Position numbers and translations under genes: made by a program
Notes under the pieces: model-generated
What the model saw: only the letters and a program-made list of their open reading frames with translations
Database searches by the model: none
Told to the model about the DNA's origin: nothing
IMG/VR virus record: IMGVR_UViG_3300008448_000469
Span: 1-28,183 of that record
Source of the DNA: a virus
Strand: one strand, 5' to 3'
DNA: 28,183 bases
Part shown: positions 2,046 through 24,586 of the stretch, piece after piece
Numbering within the stretch: position 1 is the stretch's first letter
Layout: each line of letters begins with the position of its first letter

Positions 2046-2915
2046 TCAGGCGGGGCTGGTGGAGGTGAACACCGAAGACTCCACGATGCCGGCGGGTTGC
2101 AGAACAACGTCGTCGCGCTTGGGGGGTTCGTCGGGAACGAGCCAGCACACTTCGCAGATTGCGAGGGCTTTGTCTTTGCCAGACAGCTTACCGGCAGATG
2201 CACGATCGTCGTACACACCGGAAGCTTGGCCAAGACCGGACGCAGAGGCGCCACCCAGGTTCTGCACAGAGTACAGCTTGTAGGTGGTGTCAGTAGTAAC
2301 TGCGTGCATGTTCGCATCATTCCAAGCGTTGCTGGAATTGAACGAACCGTTTTCGATCCGGCTGCTGGCGCCAACAATGGTGGCGAAGAAACCACTGGTA
2401 GTGGGGGTGGTGTTAAGACCAACGCCCACGGCAGGACCCACACCCAGGGTGGGAGTAGCGGAACCGCCAGTAATACCACTGGAGATCACGTCGCCGCCGG
2501 TCACCCGCAGGCCCACACGGTACACATAAGCACCGGAAGGAACGGTAATACCGTTCGCAATATCGGTGCGAATGTCCTTGTGGTAATCGGGGGAAGGAAT
2601 GATCACACTGCCGTTAGCAAACGGAGCGTAATCAGCGCCGCCAGAGCCGTAAGGCGTGGCGTAGTACTCAAGTTGGTTAACGCTACCCAGAGCCTGGAAG
2701 GACAGGTCAACGTAACCAACAGCCTGTTGAGCGATCCAGCCGGGACGGAAGATCACGCCAACAGGGCCGCCCACGGGCTGGTTAGCCAGCGTCTGAGCAG
2801 TGCCGTTTGCGTTGAGGAAGTCTACAGACTTAGGTTCGTGCCAATACCGGAGAACGTTGGTGTAGTTACCGGGATAGATCTTCGTAACCGAGATCTGCTT
2901 AGGATTGATTGCCAT
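2046..2915 (-). CDS. Probable capsid decoration or other abundant virion protein
   Basis: A 289-residue protein beginning MAINPKQISVTKIYPGNY. It is rich in Gly, Ser, Thr, Val and Asn, has few long charged stretches, and has no membrane segment, consistent with a beta-rich virion protein. It has the strongest ribosome site in the window (TAAGGAGGT about 8 nt before ATG) and a strong terminator directly after it, both signs of high expression. It lies 17 nt downstream of the major capsid gene. In many tailed phages a decoration, cement or major tail gene holds this place. The exact role is inferred from position and expression signals; I do not recognise the family. Confidence 0.75.
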   Translation of the reverse strand: MAINPKQISVTKIYPGNYTNVLRYWHEPKSVDFLNANGTAQTLANQPVGGPVGVIFRPGWIAQQAVGYVDLSFQALGSVNQLEYYATPYGSGGADYAPFANGSVIIPSPDYHKDIRTDIANGITVPSGAYVYRVGLRVTGGDVISSGITGGSATPTLGVGPAVGVGLNTTPTTSGFFATIVGASSRIENGSFNSSNAWNDANMHAVTTDTTYKLYSVQNLGGASASGLGQASGVYDDRASAGKLSGKDKALAICEVCWLVPDEPPKRDDVVLQPAGIVESSVFTSTSPA

Positions 2916-2932
2916 CGTTAGTTACCTCCTTA

Positions 2933-3904
2933 TCAAGCGTTAAAGGAGTAAGCGATGGTCGAGAAATCAGCGTTCAGAAGTTCGAAACCTGCGTACAGGC
3001 TCCAAATCATCATGATAAAACGGCTGAAATCATCGTTGTTGTTCAACAGAACCTGAGCGTTATTACCGCCGATACCGACGCCAACGCTCTGGGGACCGAA
3101 GAACATACCAATCGCAGCTTCATAAGAAGCGGAGGTGCCGCCGATGCTCGCAGTCTGAGACTGAGAAGGCATGTTGGTGGATTCGAAGAAGCGGACGCCT
3201 TCGAACACAAAACCGGTCGGCATAATCGGCTCACCCGCCACAAAAGTGGCTTGGCCGAAGCCCTGACCCATGTAGATAGCAGCGTTGGGCTGCATCGAGG
3301 ACATCAGGGGGTTGATCTGACCGTTGCCGGGGTAACGAGCAACTTCACGGAAGTCACTGTTCTGGCGCAGGTGCATCAGGAAAGTAGGATCGCAAACGCA
3401 GCGATAGAAACCATCCTGATATGTAGGAACGTTGCGCTTACGCATGGATTTAACCACGCGGAGCAGATCGTCCTTAACGTCGAACTTAGCTTGTTCGGCG
3501 TTTGCGTAGGTGAGGCTACCGACAGCGAGATCGCCGGGGTAGTAGTAACCACCTTGAGAGTCAGAAGCCTGACCCTTAGAAACTGCTTTAAGGAGTTCGT
3601 TAATGAACACCCGGTCGCGCCAACGACGATAGTCGTCGAGCAGAGTCAGCGAACCGATTGACTGGTGGAACGCAGTCAGGTTGCCGGTGTCCAGCAAAAG
3701 ACGCTGCGCGGTGATCAGAGTCTCGCGAGCAATCTTGAAAGTGCTGGGCTGAGTGGGATCACTCGGATCCGCAGGACCAGTGTACTCGCGAAGGGTCACG
3801 AGCACTTTGTCCTTCACAATGTTCCGGCTGTTGGCAGTACCAATGGTCTGCTCAGCAGTGCGCTCCCGAGACTCTTTAGAGCCAGGATTGCCCCAGAAAC
3901 GATA
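2933..3904 (-). CDS. Major capsid protein, exon 3 (main exon)
   Basis: The reading frame from 3904 to the stop at 2933 encodes 323 residues beginning YRFWGNPGSKESRERTAEQT. An apparent TTG start at 3907 belongs to the intron and is not the true start: exon 2 joins in frame to give VQLDR|YRFWGNP. The protein has a charged N-terminal helix region, a long middle part (YYYPGDLAVGSLTYANAEQA) and a Gly/Ser-rich C-terminal part ending in AYSFNA. Size, position between scaffold-like and decoration-like genes, and general look fit an HK97-fold major capsid protein. Together with exon 2 the mature product would be about 370 residues, usual for the family. Identification as capsid is by recognition and context, without a database search. 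Confidence 0.8.
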   Translation of the reverse strand, partial: YRFWGNPGSKESRERTAEQTIGTANSRNIVKDKVLVTLREYTGPADPSDPTQPSTFKIARETLITAQRLLLDTGNLTAFHQSIGSLTLLDDYRRWRDRVFINELLKAVSKGQASDSQGGYYYPGDLAVGSLTYANAEQAKFDVKDDLLRVVKSMRKRNVPTYQDGFYRCVCDPTFLMHLRQNSDFREVARYPGNGQINPLMSSMQPNAAIYMGQGFGQATFVAGEPIMPTGFVFEGVRFFESTNMPSQSQTASIGGTSASYEAAIGMFFGPQSVGVGIGGNNAQVLLNNNDDFSRFIMMIWSLYAGFELLNADFSTIAYSFNA

Positions 3905-4816
3905 CAATTGTTACCCTAGAGGCTCTTTATCCTCTAGTTCTTGCAATTTACCATCCTGCAAGGTCAGACTATATCATCAAGAACACGTATGTGTGTTCTC
4001 GCTCCGCGCTCGTGCCGCCTTATCGCCTTCATCAACCAGAGGTATGCTAAGGCTCGCTTGGTACTCTCTTTTGCTTCGAGTATTGTAAGAAGAGAATAAC
4101 AAGGTGACTTTATGTCGCATCGAGGAGTGAACGTGAGGCCGGATTTTGGAAAGAAACTTGGGCATTTTCCCTCGTGAAATACGAACACGATAAGAAAATC
4201 CGTCTCTGTAAGGTTTAGCCTCTACTCCGGTCAGAGATTCAATCCATTCGCAAACTAGAAGAGCTTCTTCCAATGGACGGTAAAGATTTAAAATCCCTTT
4301 ATTGACCGCAGAGGTGGTCTTACCCACAGAACCATCATCCATCCAAAATACCGCGAGGGCCTCAAGGTCTAAAAGACTTAAAACGTCTTTAGTAAACGAT
4401 TTTTCCCCGTTTTTATAAAATAGAGCGCGAAGCTCTTTTAAAACCGGGTTAACAACCATAGCTTGACAAGAGAGATGACTGTTTTTAGTCCTCTCGTCAT
4501 AGACAAGCCTAGGCTCGCTTACAGATCCTCGTGTCCCCAGCTCTTCGTTTATTCGATTCATTTTGTAAATCAAATAATCTCGTTGAGCAGCCGAATGAGT
4601 AAAACTCAGATAAACGGAATTAGGACGTTCTTTTGGAATTCCTAAACAGCCGTCTCCGGCGACACAGGCGAGAGTAAAGAGAGGGAGCGAAGTCACAGCG
4701 GTAGTCGTTGAACCTTCCGATCATTTCGGATCGGCTTGGCTGCTGATTGCCCTTAAGCATAAAGCCTGGAGGGTTCCCAGCAATTCACGGAGTTTAAAGA
4801 CCGCTATCGCTAATTA
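3905..4816 (-). ncRNA. Group I intron with embedded LAGLIDADG gene in the capsid gene
   Basis: A 912-nt minus-strand group I intron. P1: the exon end GACCGT pairs with GCGGTC (U.G at the splice site). P10: the next exon TATCG pairs with CGATA directly before GCGGTC, and the intron ends in G. Conserved core: P element at 4771-4788 (GTGAATTGCTGGGAACCC), Q at 4738-4748 (AATCAGCAGCC), R at 4702-4713 (GTTCAACGACTA), S at 3967-3975 (GATATAGTC); R and S pair as P7. Near the 3' end are hairpins CTTGCA/TGCAAG (3940-3945 with 3957-3962) and CTAGAGG/CCTCTAG (3916-3922 with 3931-3937). The endonuclease gene lies between R and S. Confidence 0.93.
3977..4696 (-). CDS. LAGLIDADG homing endonuclease in group I intron
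   Basis: A 239-residue protein with two LAGLIDADG motifs, so probably a single-chain enzyme: LACVAGDGCLG at residues 9-19 and LEALAVFWMDDGS at 111-123, each with the catalytic acidic residue. Enzymes of this family cut a long site in intronless alleles, and repair copies the intron into the break. The start is GTG at 4696, just after the R element. The TGA stop at 3977-3979 almost abuts the S element (GATATAGTC), so the gene fills a peripheral loop without breaking the ribozyme core. The C-terminal tail (about 205-239) is basic and polar. Its likely target is the joined exon sequence around 4817/3904. Confidence 0.92.
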   Translation of the reverse strand: MTSLPLFTLACVAGDGCLGIPKERPNSVYLSFTHSAAQRDYLIYKMNRINEELGTRGSVSEPRLVYDERTKNSHLSCQAMVVNPVLKELRALFYKNGEKSFTKDVLSLLDLEALAVFWMDDGSVGKTTSAVNKGILNLYRPLEEALLVCEWIESLTGVEAKPYRDGFSYRVRISRGKMPKFLSKIRPHVHSSMRHKVTLLFSSYNTRSKREYQASLSIPLVDEGDKAARARSENTHTCS

Positions 4817-4952
4817 ACGGTCAAGCTGCACAGTCTGGCCGGGTTGTTTAGAGAAATCATGCACAACCACGGGCTCTGCTGCCATCTCAACGACGTAAGC
4901 CGGATGAGGACGGTAGAGTTCAGCACCGAGCAGCTTCGGAAAATCATTGTCG
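4817..4952 (-). CDS. Major capsid protein, exon 2 (N-terminal part)
   Basis: This stretch between the two introns encodes 45 codons in frame with exon 3: DNDFPKLLGAELYRPHPAY, then VVEMAAEPVVVHDFSK and QPGQTVQLDR. The first nucleotide completes a codon begun in exon 1. The downstream splice site is supported by P1 and P10 pairings; the upstream edge is placed after the terminal G of the first intron (TAACAAAACTG). It is easily missed because it has no start codon of its own and is too short to stand out. No stop occurs in this frame and the sequence reads like a normal capsid N-terminal arm. Confidence 0.85.
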
Positions 4953-5303
4953 CAGTTTTGTTACCCTAGAGGCTCTTTATCCCCTAGCTCTGCATCTTTA
5001 CCATAGATGCAGCTCGGACTATATCATCATCTGCGTGTTTAACACGAGATGTCGGGCGCTCGTGGGCGGTTCATCCGTTCTGGATTATTAAGCCTAGTCT
5101 CTGAACGTTCCATGTGTTCCCACATGGCTTCGCTGCTGATTCCCTCGATCCAACCGCACTGTTGGATCTAAAATCCTGTCCGGTTCTGTGACCGGGGTTA
5201 AATTTTCAAGGTTCTCAGGACAAGTCCTGATTGTTTGTGCTAAAGGAAGGGTTCCAGCAATTCACCCGATTACTGCATAAGCCTCACGACTTATGAGCGC
5301 CTA
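4953..5303 (-). ncRNA. Group I intron without endonuclease, near the capsid gene start
   Basis: A compact intron of about 340-351 nt with the same core elements as the downstream one: P at 5249-5267 (GGGTGAATTGCTGGAACCC), Q around 5127-5145 (AATCAGCAGCGAAGCC), R at 5095-5106 (GTTCAGAGACTA), S at 5017-5025 (GATATAGTC). The 3' hairpins are CTGCATC/GATGCAG (4990-4996 with 5006-5012) and CTAGGGG/CCTCTAG (4966-4972 with 4981-4987). The last 30 or so bases nearly match the other intron, so the two are close relatives. The 3' end after G4953 is well supported. The 5' end is uncertain, at 5292 or 5303. No endonuclease gene is present. Confidence 0.85.
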
Positions 5304-5314
5304 ACGACGAACAA
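5304..5314 (-). CDS. Candidate exon 1 and start codon of the major capsid protein
   Basis: A TTG codon at 5314-5312 lies 8 nt after a good Shine-Dalgarno GGAGG (5327-5323). Reading TTG TTC GTC GT and joining to exon 2 at 4952 gives MFVVDNDFPKLLG in frame. The alternative 5' splice site after 5293 has a better P1 (CTCAT with GTGAG) but breaks this frame. No ATG in the right frame with a ribosome site exists between the upstream gene (stop at 5410) and the intron. The exon is therefore probable but its exact end is a guess. Confidence 0.45.
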
Positions 5315-5322
5315 AGCGTCAA

Positions 5323-13903: not shown

Positions 13904-16621
13904 TCAATACTCAATGGAAAACTCCCCTCGCCGCTGTAAAAACGTAATGAGCCAGGTGTACGCGTCCAGCAGGTCATCATGCGCCGTGGCGCCGACGTTG
14001 ATCAGCTGATCGAACAAAGCGTCGAACTTGCGGTACTTATTGAACGTGATTTTCTTGTTTTCTAGCAAACCTAAAGTTCCACGGAAGCGGGCCACCTTGT
14101 CCCCCCGGAACCCTTTAACTTCGTGAATGTGCAGATTGCCCAATTCCCTCTCATTAATAAGGACACGGCGTAGGTCCGCCGCCAGCGAAGCCTGATACGC
14201 AACAGACTCAACAACCAGAGTCACCGTGGAATATGTCGGCATATACGTTCCGTCATGCTGCGTCAAAATCCCCCACTCCAGCAACATATCGCAAAGCAAA
14301 TCGATCTTCTCCAAGTTGCCGATAGAGCGGCACTGGTGCGCATCGATTATGTAGTACTTATCTTTAAGGCGACCACCTAACACAAACGCCGTGTAGTCAC
14401 TTGTTTCATTTTTACTAGCAGACAAGTCGATACCGATAGCCAAACTATCGAACTCCGTAACAACTTCCCCTTTAACCAGCAAGTCAGGCGACACGACCAG
14501 ATCCGATGTCATGACCGGCTGCTGCTGATACTGGTACGCAAAGGCCACGGGGTCCAGCTCTTTCTGACCGAGCAGATACTCAGCGGACCACTGCTCAGGC
14601 CAATAGCTAACAGGTTGTCCAACGTTGTCGTACGTAATCGCTTCCTGTGTTACCTGTTTCCACCCTTTCGACGGCACGAACATCGTCTTATGGATGTCCA
14701 ACGGGTGGAATCGGGTGCCCAGACAGATTGACCGGCCACCTTCAAAAATAATGGGCGCGATAACCGAGGACCAGTTGTTGTTCATTTCGTCCCGAATAGT
14801 CGGGTTGCGAATGTCCGCACTACTTTTAATAGGGTCATCCACGATCACAAGGTGCGCACGTTTAGACGTAATCGAACCCCGAAGACCAGCGGCCCTCAAC
14901 GTAAATTCTTCGTCACCGACCCTAGGGATACCCGCGTAATCGAAGTCAATCGACCAGCCGATGTCGGATTGCATCCCGGACTTCAGCTGAACCTTCGGAA
15001 AAATCTTGCGATACTCCGGCGAGTCAATCAGTTGTCTAATAATGCGACTCTTGGGAATAGCCGTTGCGATGTTGTACGAAACGTAAATAATTTGCAAAGG
15101 CATTCCTGCTGTTGTGTGGCGCCCAATAATCCACGCTGTAAACATGTTCAGCACCGTGGACTTGGCGCTATTTTTGCTCACAACATAATCTTTAATAAGA
15201 AATCGTTCTTGCTGATTACTGACTGTCAAACAACGCACGTCGCTGACGCCAGCAGGCTCGATATTGGTTATAGATCGTACGCAACCCCTATTCGACCGAC
15301 CGGAAGCTGGTCCCAAGTACTTTTTGCTCTTACGTGCGCAATAAAACGGTTTAATATCTGCCGGAAGGCTGACGCTCACACGATAAGCTAAATTTTTACT
15401 TACAATTTTTACCTCATTCTTGTAGTAGTGAGGGTAATAAGGTTTATTAAAACGTACTATTCCGCCTAAAGAACGTACAAGTTCGCTGAATCCTTGAATA
15501 AGTTTAAAGCTAGAACTACCAAAACCCAGTCCCCCTAATCCTTCTGAATTTTTGCCGTGTCCGTTTCTAGTTCCATCTGAGTCAAGTAAACCTCGCAACA
15601 ACCACTCTCGTTGCTCAATGGAACCTCGAAGATACTGCTCCGGAATACTCTTCTCTAAGGAGCTTTTACCGCGCAGGCCCAACTGCTCCAAAACCAGCGA
15701 TACAGCTTTCTTAAAACCTCCCCGCCGACCATCAATAATCGGTTGAGTCGCTCCTTCCGCAAGTTGAATTTGATAGTTATATTTTCGGCACTCGTAAGAA
15801 CGCTCAACTAAAACATTATCTGCAGGCAAAATAGTATTAATAAAATCAGCTATATCCTTATCCGCAGTAGTGATATTAATACTGGTTAGATCTGTGAGAC
15901 CCCCGTCACCTAATAAAATTCCGATGAGGTACGGATGCAGGGGAAGTTCTAATTCAGGGTACTGAACAGCAGAAGTTACAGGTACTTGATAACGCGAGTA
16001 ACCTTTTTTATCCAGCCACGGTTGCTCATCAGGTAGAGCTTGGCGAACAGTTCGCGTCACTCCCGTGCGCCAGTTACCTCGAATCCCCGTGGTTACTAGG
16101 GTTCGGATTTCCTGGAGAGTGGTGGTGCGGTAGTCGCCCTTTGCATTTGTCCCTAAGCGGCGTACGTCAAATCGATGTGAGTCATCACACAACATCGAGG
16201 TTCCGTCAGAAAAAGTCACCTTAAACACGGGAACTTCCCCGTAAGATGGCGTATCTAAAACGGTTGTTGGCAGTCCATCATCACCGTAAACTGTATCTCC
16301 TGTCTTGATATCTTTAAGTTTCACCCATCCTGTAGGTGTTGCAACTTCGGTATCGGGATGTAAAGGTCCCCTAGGGGCCAGAATATCAAGGTTAGGGCCA
16401 GCAATATCTAATAAGTACCTATTGCTCTCACCTGTAATCAGGTGATGATGCCACTCCAGCATGTGCTTAGCCGGAGGCTTGTCTATTAACGTACAGAACG
16501 TCTGAAAGTCATCAGCAGCTTTAGTGTAAATAGAGTCAATAGAACCAACTCTGTTTTCTTGCGCACGCAGAGCACGCACTTGAGCCCCACGGCGATAAGC
16601 AAAAGTTTCCCGACTGGGCAT
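13904..16621 (-). CDS. terL: Terminase large subunit with intein
   Basis: A 905-residue precursor; removal of the intein (residues 86-484) leaves 506 residues, normal for a large terminase. The N-extein ends LDILAPRG and the C-extein begins SAKSTVLNMF, so splicing restores the Walker A motif APRGSAKST. The ATPase domain continues with Walker B LVIVDDP at 591-597 and a coupling region SICLGTRFH. The nuclease domain has AIGIDLSASKNETSDYTAF (catalytic Asp732) and a C-terminal HDDLLDAYTWL with the last acidic residues. The enzyme cuts concatemeric DNA and pumps it into the prohead through the portal. ATP hydrolysis should be impossible before splicing. Confidence 0.93.
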   Translation of the reverse strand: MPSRETFAYRRGAQVRALRAQENRVGSIDSIYTKAADDFQTFCTLIDKPPAKHMLEWHHHLITGESNRYLLDIAGPNLDILAPRGPLHPDTEVATPTGWVKLKDIKTGDTVYGDDGLPTTVLDTPSYGEVPVFKVTFSDGTSMLCDDSHRFDVRRLGTNAKGDYRTTTLQEIRTLVTTGIRGNWRTGVTRTVRQALPDEQPWLDKKGYSRYQVPVTSAVQYPELELPLHPYLIGILLGDGGLTDLTSINITTADKDIADFINTILPADNVLVERSYECRKYNYQIQLAEGATQPIIDGRRGGFKKAVSLVLEQLGLRGKSSLEKSIPEQYLRGSIEQREWLLRGLLDSDGTRNGHGKNSEGLGGLGFGSSSFKLIQGFSELVRSLGGIVRFNKPYYPHYYKNEVKIVSKNLAYRVSVSLPADIKPFYCARKSKKYLGPASGRSNRGCVRSITNIEPAGVSDVRCLTVSNQQERFLIKDYVVSKNSAKSTVLNMFTAWIIGRHTTAGMPLQIIYVSYNIATAIPKSRIIRQLIDSPEYRKIFPKVQLKSGMQSDIGWSIDFDYAGIPRVGDEEFTLRAAGLRGSITSKRAHLVIVDDPIKSSADIRNPTIRDEMNNNWSSVIAPIIFEGGRSICLGTRFHPLDIHKTMFVPSKGWKQVTQEAITYDNVGQPVSYWPEQWSAEYLLGQKELDPVAFAYQYQQQPVMTSDLVVSPDLLVKGEVVTEFDSLAIGIDLSASKNETSDYTAFVLGGRLKDKYYIIDAHQCRSIGNLEKIDLLCDMLLEWGILTQHDGTYMPTYSTVTLVVESVAYQASLAADLRRVLINERELGNLHIHEVKGFRGDKVARFRGTLGLLENKKITFNKYRKFDALFDQLINVGATAHDDLLDAYTWLITFLQRRGEFSIEY
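15170..16366 (-). other. Intein with LAGLIDADG endonuclease domain inside terL
   Basis: A 399-residue intein in the Walker A loop of the terminase. Splicing block A: PLHPDTEVATPTGWVKLKDI at its start. Block B: TFSDGTSMLCDDSHRFDV with the conserved His (intein residue 64). LAGLIDADG motifs: LIGILLGDGGL (147-157) and LLRGLLDSDGT (256-266). Block F: VSDVRCLTV with Cys379. Block G: DYVVSKN followed by Ser. The first residue is Pro and not the usual Cys or Ser, and the penultimate residue is Lys and not His. The F-block Cys suggests a class 3-like mechanism. Boundaries are set by comparison with the Walker A consensus and have not been tested. Confidence 0.9.
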
Positions 16622-16675: not shown

Positions 16676-17848
16676 ATGGCGAAAATTCTTTGGTACGGTG
16701 ACGTTTGTAGTAATACCGGATTTGCGCGTGTAACACATAGTGTGCTGGATCATCTCAGTAAAGAGCACGAGGTGACCGTACTGGGAATTAACTACGCAGG
16801 AGATCCGCACGACAAAACTTACAAAATTTACCCGGCGTCCACGATCCACTGCCCGGATCGATTCGGCATACCTCGTGTCACCGAGGTCATCGAAAAAGTG
16901 TGCCCTGATGTTGTTATCTGTCTAAACGACATCTGGGTTGTCAACCAATTCTGGGAGCGATGCCAGTTCCTTAAAGACAAACACAAGTTCAAATTTATTG
17001 CCTACTTCCCCATCGATAGCGAACGCTATTACCCCGACATGCTGCGGAACATTCCGCACTGGGATCTAGCCATAACCTTCACCGTTGGCTGCGCTCACCG
17101 AATTCTGGCGCACAAAATTCCTGCCGCAAAGCTGGGAGTGCTGCCGCACGGCGTAGACACTGGGAAGTTCAGCCCCGTGCCCATGGAGGAAGCTCGCGCA
17201 AAATTAGGACTCCCAACCGATAAATTCATCGTTTTCAACGGCAATAGAAACCAGCCCCGCAAACGAATCGACCTGACCATTCAGGCATTCGCGCAATTCG
17301 CGGAAGATAAACCTGATGCCATGTTGTACCTGCACATGGGGGCCAAGGACATGGGATGGGACATCATTCCCCTGTTTAAGCGCGAGATGGAGCGGCGCGG
17401 AATCGACGACAACAAGAAACTGATTTTGACTTCAGAGCAAATTAACTACATGGATGCTCCCCCAGACGAACTCCTTAACACCATCTACAACGCGTGCAAC
17501 GTCGGCCTCAACACAGCTGATGGAGAAGGCTGGGGCTTAGTTAGCTTCGAACACGCAAGTTGCCGCAAGCCTCAAGTAGTACCCAATCACACAGCTTGCG
17601 CTGATATCTGGGACGAAGCAGCCATGCTCGTCGATATCGCCACGTGGATCACGGATAAGGATCGAGGCGTCGAGCGCGGACTAATTGATGTAAATGATGC
17701 CGTTCGCTGCTTAAACGAGTTGTACTACAACAAAGAGACTTACGACGAAGTGGCAGCAGCATGTTTTGCTGTAACTCAACGTCCTGAATACCGCTGGGAA
17801 ACCGTTTCGGCTGGTTTCTCGGCCGCTGTACACGATCTTCTTTCTTGA
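16676..17848 (+). CDS. GT4-like glycosyltransferase (GT-B fold)
   Basis: A protein of about 390 residues from ATG at 16676 (preceded by CAGGA); the frame is open further left to 16559 but that part lies in terL. The N-terminal domain starts MAKILWYGDVCSNTGFARVT, a glycine-rich start of a Rossmann-type domain. The C-terminal domain has FNGNRNQPRKRIDLTIQAFA and the EX7E motif in GEGWGLVSFEHASCRKP, which binds the nucleotide-sugar donor in GT4 enzymes. It likely transfers a hexose from a nucleotide sugar. It forms a two-gene plus-strand unit with the GH130-like gene, 3 nt apart, inserted between terminase genes transcribed the other way. Confidence 0.85.
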   Translation: MAKILWYGDVCSNTGFARVTHSVLDHLSKEHEVTVLGINYAGDPHDKTYKIYPASTIHCPDRFGIPRVTEVIEKVCPDVVICLNDIWVVNQFWERCQFLKDKHKFKFIAYFPIDSERYYPDMLRNIPHWDLAITFTVGCAHRILAHKIPAAKLGVLPHGVDTGKFSPVPMEEARAKLGLPTDKFIVFNGNRNQPRKRIDLTIQAFAQFAEDKPDAMLYLHMGAKDMGWDIIPLFKREMERRGIDDNKKLILTSEQINYMDAPPDELLNTIYNACNVGLNTADGEGWGLVSFEHASCRKPQVVPNHTACADIWDEAAMLVDIATWITDKDRGVERGLIDVNDAVRCLNELYYNKETYDEVAAACFAVTQRPEYRWETVSAGFSAAVHDLLS

Positions 17849-23881: not shown

Positions 23882-24586
23882 GTGACGACATTCCTCTGGG
23901 GCCCGAAGGAGTCACTAATAGTCCCCACACCGGACGTTGGTTTTTTGATGCACGACGATGACTCCGGACGTTGCCAAATGCACAACGTGGGCATCCCAGA
24001 GAAAAACCTGATCGACTGGGCCCGTCAGTTTTCCGACAAAACCAAAAATTTCATCGATTGTGGCGCTCACATGGGCGCGTACTCCATCCTGCTTGCAGAC
24101 GGATTTAAAGAAGTTCTTGCATTCGAAGCACAACGTCGCACGTTTTTTCAGCTGTGCGGCAACATCTTTATAAACGAGAAAAGCAACATCACCCCCAGGC
24201 ACATCGCCGTAACCGATAAAGTCCACGCTCACCAGAACGTGACCCTATCCGTCGTATCCGAAGACGGTGGCGGCTCGACCGTTCTGATCCCCAGGCAACC
24301 TGTGCTGAGCAGCGAACGCGTGCCGGCAATGCACTTGGACGAATACCGCATCGACGACGTGGGGCTGATCAAGCTCGACATCGAGGGCGGCGAACTGGCT
24401 GCACTCAAGGGCGCTGAACTCACCATCAAGCGTAGTGGTTACCCTCCGATCATCTTCGAAGCCAACAACGACAGCTGGTACATCCAGAAGAAACAAGAAC
24501 TGTTTAGTTATCTTTCTGATATAGGCTACAAAATTGCGGAAATTCGCCCGTACGAAAACATGTACGTCGCCATGAAACAGGACTAA
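23882..24586 (+). CDS. FkbM-family methyltransferase
   Basis: A 234-residue SAM-dependent methyltransferase from GTG at 23882. Motif I NFIDCGAHMGAYSILLADG at residues 56-74 binds S-adenosylmethionine, an acidic EVLAFEAQRRTF follows in motif II position, and DDVGLIKLDIEGGELAALKG at about 157-176 is the FkbM signature. FkbM-like enzymes put methyl groups on hydroxyls of sugars or other small molecules. Next to a GT2 gene it likely caps a phage- or host-derived glycan. It is one of only four plus-strand genes. Its stop overlaps the end of a small convergent frame. Confidence 0.87.
   Translation: MTTFLWGPKESLIVPTPDVGFLMHDDDSGRCQMHNVGIPEKNLIDWARQFSDKTKNFIDCGAHMGAYSILLADGFKEVLAFEAQRRTFFQLCGNIFINEKSNITPRHIAVTDKVHAHQNVTLSVVSEDGGGSTVLIPRQPVLSSERVPAMHLDEYRIDDVGLIKLDIEGGELAALKGAELTIKRSGYPPIIFEANNDSWYIQKKQELFSYLSDIGYKIAEIRPYENMYVAMKQD

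Follow-up and report, generated by a model that had tools for sequence, protein, structure and literature searches.

A predicted divergent class 3-type intein beginning with proline in the large terminase subunit of an S-EIV1-related cyanophage

The interrupted terminase gene and its surroundings

The window analyzed here is the whole stretch of 28,183 nucleotides of the IMG/VR virus record IMGVR_UViG_3300008448_000469, which belongs to a freshwater cyanophage related to S-EIV1. The gene for the large terminase subunit (TerL) is located on the minus strand and includes the following parts.

13904-16621, minus strand: TerL ORF, large terminase subunit of 905 aa, frame open throughout
16367..16621, minus strand: TerL N-extein of 85 aa (MPSRETF...NLDILAPRG), with the same N-terminus as intein-free homologues
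15170..16366, minus strand: intein of 399 aa, P1 to N399, in Walker A (APRG|SAKST), delimited by the empty alleles of 70 relatives
13904..15169, minus strand: TerL C-extein, starting with SAKST, with the Terminase_6C nuclease domain (PF17289, E 5e-6; phrog_38, E 2e-72)

The insert corresponds to TerL residues 86-484 (399 codons). It starts with PLHPDTEVATPTGW and ends with YVVSKN, after which a Ser follows; the N399 codon occupies positions 15170-15172 and the Ser+1 codon positions 15167-15169 of the minus strand. Without the insert, TerL reads NLDILAPRGSAKSTVLN, and the phrog_38 terminase match begins directly after the insert. A search of IMG/VR with the C-extein as a query resulted in 80 TerL loci. 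An uninterrupted PRGSAKST was found in 70 TerL homologues among the IMG/VR loci examined (complete ORFs of about 505-514 aa), some of them more than 95% identical in the C-extein, and in other loci this very bond was interrupted by 396-407 aa. Given the empty site in 70 relatives, the boundaries are firm, and the coordinates, the boundaries and the restoration of Walker A on removal, as given in a preliminary description of this DNA, proved to be exact. The insert is an intein, being in-frame, facing empty alleles at the same bond and having a HINT fold, a C-terminal Asn and Ser+1; its self-excision is predicted.

The TerL P-loop is also the insertion place of the mycobacteriophage TerL1-a and TerL1-b inteins (PMC5050341). 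TerL1-a separates the invariant Lys from the Thr and TerL1-b is displaced by one residue, whereas the intein of the window separates the Gly from the Ser in G|SAKST.

Among deposited TerL proteins, that of S-EIV1, a freshwater phage of Synechococcus, is the closest, with 53.5% over the C-extein. At both the DNA and the protein level, deposited phages yielded no intein relative of more than 60% identity, so this allele is absent from the deposited phage collection. A scan of genome contigs with the Pro1 intein family gave no match.

Several other elements were found in the window. Two group I introns break up the major capsid gene region on the minus strand. One of them (4990-5316) scored 66.8 bits, above the Rfam threshold, and the other (3946-4826) scored 38.7 bits (E 7e-8), below it. 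The latter contains a LAGLIDADG_2 endonuclease ORF (3977-4696), and a head-protein ORF (2933-3907) begins just after this second intron. Also, a glycosyltransferase gene (16676-17848, plus strand; phrog_2170) is located beside the minus-strand structural genes, and an FkbM-like methyltransferase gene (23882-24586, plus strand) was recognized by eye only. Their presence suggests glycan-modifying accessory genes.

Residues conserved in the Pro1 intein family

Added scans with the intein and with its N-terminal part led to 15 distinct complete alleles as well as partial ones; these relatives come from metagenomic contigs. The residues considered below are positioned in the window as follows.

16364..16366, minus strand: Pro1, block A position 1; Pro in 15/15 alleles, Ala or other residues in canonical homologues
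16169..16189, minus strand: block B core C60-D61-D62-S63-H64-R65-F66, with H64 at B:10, R65 at B:11 and F66 at B:12
15230..15232, minus strand: Cys379 at F:4, the predicted first nucleophile; Cys in 15/15 of the family and in 62/62 canonical class 3 inteins
15170..15178, minus strand: end of block G with S397 (G:5), K398 (G:6) and N399 (G:7), sequence YVVSKN|S

The preliminary description had listed Pro at position 1, Cys379 in block F, Phe (HRF) in place of the block B Trp, Ser in place of the block G Thr and Lys in place of the penultimate His. All of these readings were borne out, and most of them extend to the relatives. Pro1 is present in all 15 distinct alleles at the same TerL site, which is far beyond chance. 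Block B of the window is LCDDSHRFDV, with F66 at B:12, where canonical class 3 inteins have Trp; the family has Phe, Ile or Met here (HRM in the allele L093). Block F is VSDVRCLTV, C379 is correctly numbered, and its Cys is kept in 15/15 alleles amid neighboring residues that vary. Ser397 is found in all 15 full alleles, and the partial allele L099 has Thr at G:5. Overall, Pro1, Cys60, His64, Cys343, Cys379, Ser397, Asn399 and Ser+1 (in SAKST) are constant in 15/15 alleles, and the variable columns are B:11 (Arg/Lys65), B:12 (Phe/Ile/Met66) and G:6 (Lys/Ser/Asn398). The clade therefore has the signature [F/I/M]-C-S in place of the WCT (Trp B:12, Cys F:4, Thr G:5) of canonical class 3 inteins, and the penultimate His is absent.

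The Pro1 alleles are under purifying selection, with dN of about 0.15-0.4 and saturated synonymous sites, alike in the splicing and endonuclease parts. Since the odd residues are common to all 15 distinct alleles under such selection, they are neither errors nor decay. These data also bear on the possibility that the intein is dead for splicing, or capable of cleavage only, in a contig with a defective terL. Such a state would agree with the lack of several textbook catalytic residues. However, one open frame is present in all alleles except the frameshifted contig L096, the odd residues are kept across alleles that are 60-79% identical and subject to purifying selection, and a TerL with a broken Walker A should be unable to package DNA. 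We consider a defective intein very improbable. The frameshift of L096 is located near residue 358 and could be explained by sequencing error or decay.

It should be noted that a different TerL intein, with class 1 features and located at the Walker B site, was found in S-EIV1 (L100, TerL 2243-4783), L094 and L199. Its junctions in S-EIV1 and L094 are HL|C...N|C(L/I)xDDP. L094 and L199 also hold the Pro1 intein, and thus two unrelated inteins reside in one terminase.

Relationship to canonical class 3 inteins

An alignment with class 3 inteins, proposed in the preliminary description as a check, gave a full-length match. In a profile-profile alignment (hhalign) against four phage class 3 inteins of the canonical kind, residues 5-399 matched 5-367 with a probability of 100 and E 3e-55. 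Here F66, S397 and K398 of the window intein correspond to Trp, Thr and His, and C379 and N399 coincide with the class 3 Cys and with Asn; the HMMER alignment also set C379 on the class 3 Cys. The best sequence matches in the PDB were the class 3 DnaB inteins Msm DnaBi1 and MchDnaB1 (6bs8 and 6rix), whose splicing domain superposes on that of the window intein at 1.5-1.9 A. These inteins differ in residing in chromosomal DnaB and in having the canonical WCT residues, and their structures are those of mini-inteins without an endonuclease domain. In the maximum-likelihood tree, the 15 alleles formed one clade (100/100 support) with a long stem (0.92) among WCT inteins; the root was set at the midpoint, without a class 1 outgroup, and the tree speaks for nesting among the sampled sequences but not for the order in which events took place.

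The HINT splicing fold is common to all intein classes. The AF2 model of the intein, built from 28 sequences, had a pLDDT of 83 and a pTM of 0.85, and matched 6bs8 with Z 17.6 (1.5 A over 123 residues, 30% identity) and the AceL NrdHF intein (6zgq) with Z 15.1. Residues 1-399 of the model align to 1-139 of 6bs8, which puts its predicted ends at the places of class 3 ends. Over the full length, the structure matches were PI-SceI-type inteins. As gp41-1, a class 1 intein, scored as high against the model as class 3 inteins did, and as the fold is shared, the class does not follow from the fold by itself.

With the canonical phage class 3 inteins (WCT, in helicases, terminases, PhoH and portal proteins), the TerL clade shares homology over the full length, including the LAGLIDADG domain, as well as the F:4 Cys, the B:10 His, the terminal Asn and Ser/Thr+1. 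Most of the canonical inteins also lack an N-terminal nucleophile. The differences lie in five positions, where they have mostly Ala1, Leu/Ile at B:11, Trp at B:12, Thr at G:5 and His at G:6, whereas the TerL clade has Pro1, Arg/Lys, Phe/Ile/Met, Ser and Lys/Ser/Asn. Among 62 canonical homologues, gathered partly with patterns including the block G end, Trp B:12, Cys F:4, Thr G:5 and His G:6 were present in 62/62; B:10 was His, B:11 Leu/Ile and G:7 Asn. Position 1 was mostly Ala (48), followed by Ser, Met and others.

In a second census, only the first 59 residues were used as a query, and 67 class 3 inteins were parsed (17 loci did not parse, and L311 did not fit the stricter pattern). Trp and THN were found wherever the reading was unambiguous. 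Seven cases of non-Trp or non-THN (L255, L263, L265, L272, L281, L288 and L294) turned out on inspection to be parsing errors.

Two of the 67 inteins start with Pro and are otherwise canonical WCT inteins, namely L262 (LPG|PQPL...THN|TLEE, G|T) in a PhoH-like protein and L283 (MAA|PQPL...THN|TYSN, A|T) in a portal-like protein, both proteins being recognized by eye from the exteins. Class 3 inteins are tolerant of many first residues. With L262 and L283, Pro1 is rare yet not confined to the clade, and alone it is unremarkable. What distinguishes the clade is the joint change at B:11, B:12, G:5 and G:6, fixed in one lineage. When further inteins carrying a block B HR[F/I/M] were sought, the matches were limited to this TerL family and to WCT inteins of the canonical type. 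A literature search returned no paper on Pro1 inteins; the founding class 3 papers lay outside it, and an earlier notice is possible.

Within the clade, conservation is not enough to point to C379, since C60 of block B and C343 are invariant as well, and one of these could be proposed as the first nucleophile. However, a Cys at the position of C343 is absent from canonical homologues, most of which have Leu there, and C60 occurs in only 38/62 of the canonical class 3 set, a frequency that would fit a packing role. Of the Cys residues, C379 alone is common to all 77 sequences compared, and initiation by C60 or C343 seems to us extremely doubtful.

A 2020 survey of 1701 sequences defined class 3 by the absence of an N-end Cys and by a Cys at C2:4, and reported departures at B:12 in about 6.1% and at G:5 in about 4.6% of them (PMC7891396). 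The Pro1 intein has a non-nucleophilic residue at position 1, and hence no Cys1, Ser1 or Thr1 of class 1. It also has Cys at F:4, Ser+1 in every allele and a place among WCT inteins in the midpoint-rooted tree; B:12 is Phe/Ile/Met in the clade, and G:5 is Ser397. By the definition of that survey it is a class 3 intein, and by the strict WCT it is not, as two of the three residues differ.

Predicted splicing pathway and mobility

As was stated in the preliminary description, Pro1 makes the standard N-terminal acyl shift impossible. This residue offers no nucleophilic side chain, and its nitrogen is part of an imide bond. The boundaries, the empty sites, the homology, the conservation and the fold prediction are read from the sequence; from these we infer the chemical steps given below, the role of Arg65 and the endonuclease activity.

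We suggest the following pathway for splicing. Cys379 (F:4), aided by His64 (B:10), would attack the Gly-1 carbonyl at the Gly-Pro1 bond, resulting in a block F branched thioester. Then, the N-extein would be transferred from Cys379 to Ser+1, Asn399 cyclization would release the intein, and an O-to-N shift would ligate APRG to SAKST, by which the P-loop would be restored. Phe66 (Ile/Met in relatives) may pack into the core where class 3 inteins have Trp, and Ser397 would retain the hydroxyl of Thr G:5. Arg65 (Arg/Lys in the clade) probably substitutes for the missing penultimate His, as proposed for Arg69 of AceL NrdHF.

Mutation of Cys F:4 in class 3 inteins blocks splicing totally, that of Trp B:12 impairs it, and that of Thr G:5 can have a minimal effect (PMC5222942). 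In gp41-1, replacing the equivalent Thr by Ser does not alter the rate of C-cleavage (PMC12245125). The same literature bears on a class 2-type route, in which the Gly-Pro1 bond is attacked by Ser+1 itself, with a purely structural part for Cys379. Both the lack of a nucleophile at position 1 and the Ser+1 of every allele would suit this route, but the F:4 Cys is kept in 15/15 alleles amid varying neighbors, the homology and the tree favor class 3, and in the class 3 inteins tested, the +1 residue was unable to initiate splicing when the F:4 Cys was missing (PMC5222942). A direct attack by Ser+1 is in our opinion distinctly unlikely.

Initiation by Cys379 finds a parallel in the AceL NrdHF intein (6zgq, PMC7891396). 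Like the TerL clade, it has a non-nucleophilic residue 1, HR followed by a large hydrophobic residue, the F:4 Cys, no penultimate His and Ser+1; it differs in being split, in its location in NrdHF, and in having Ala1 and Thr at G:5. Its B:12 and B:11 residues are Met and Arg, a Gly stands where the penultimate His would be, the F:13 His is missing, and this Met-Cys-Thr intein splices via Cys124 by class 3 chemistry (PMC7891396). Its Arg69 lies close enough to the C-scissile carbonyl for a hydrogen bond, and activity is lost on addition of the His (G145H) (PMC7891396). The TerL clade repeats this combination, which makes Arg/Lys65 a good candidate for the function of the missing His; the correlation between B:11 and G:6 rests on few independent lineages. 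Replacement of Met70 of AceL NrdHF by Trp or another aromatic residue killed its activity, so the B:12 site is context dependent (PMC7891396). AceL NrdHF was not among the matches of PDB sequence searches with the TerL intein and shares 16% identity with it in the structure alignment, and hence the two are probably independent departures.

It is also possible, though doubtful, that the class 3 site was remade as a unit, with the Trp/Thr/penultimate-His set giving way to [Phe/Ile/Met]/Ser/Arg-or-Lys65 and an obligatory Pro1 making a strained Gly-Pro1 bond that takes on the task of the usual residues; the clade would then have reached an AceL NrdHF-like arrangement independently. That this bond is strained, or perhaps cis, is a conjecture.

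The intein also contains a putative homing endonuclease.

15317..16054, minus strand: LAGLIDADG homing endonuclease domain, residues 105-350, bounds approximate (PF14528, E 1e-5; PI-SceI structures, Z about 24)
15899..15928, minus strand: LAGLIDADG motif 1, LIGILLGDGG, residues 147-156, core LLGDGG in 15/15 alleles
15572..15601, minus strand: LAGLIDADG motif 2, LLRGLLDSDG, residues 256-265, D[S/T]DG in 15/15 alleles

The acidic catalytic residues of both motifs are kept in all 15 alleles, and the endonuclease looks intact and is presumably active. The domain would carry the intein into empty terL alleles. The C-exteins of some filled and empty alleles are identical or nearly so over the first 110 residues (for example, L092 with L036 and L037, L084 with L038). 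L084 and L088 are 94% alike in the extein and only 67% in the intein, and L098 compared with the window has 61% in the intein and 53% in the extein. This sporadic distribution is suggestive of a homing element, although intein and extein similarity still correlate overall among the Pro1 alleles.

Based on the above, it is highly probable that the Walker A loop of this TerL holds a mobile, splicing-competent class 3-type intein with splicing initiated by Cys379. The best explanation is that it would work like class 3 inteins, as a divergent variant of that known kind and by no new mechanism. The divergent class 3-like mechanism put forward in the preliminary description is thus backed by homology, phylogeny, structure comparison and residue conservation, from which splicing is predicted.

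To our knowledge, a Gly-Pro imide N-junction is cleaved by few if any studied inteins. The Pro1 inteins form a coherent natural lineage rather than a lone oddity, in which WCT is broken at two of three places and the nucleophile is retained. Such a lineage makes the requirements of class 3 splicing directly testable by residue swaps, and annotation based on WCT would misclassify inteins of this kind.
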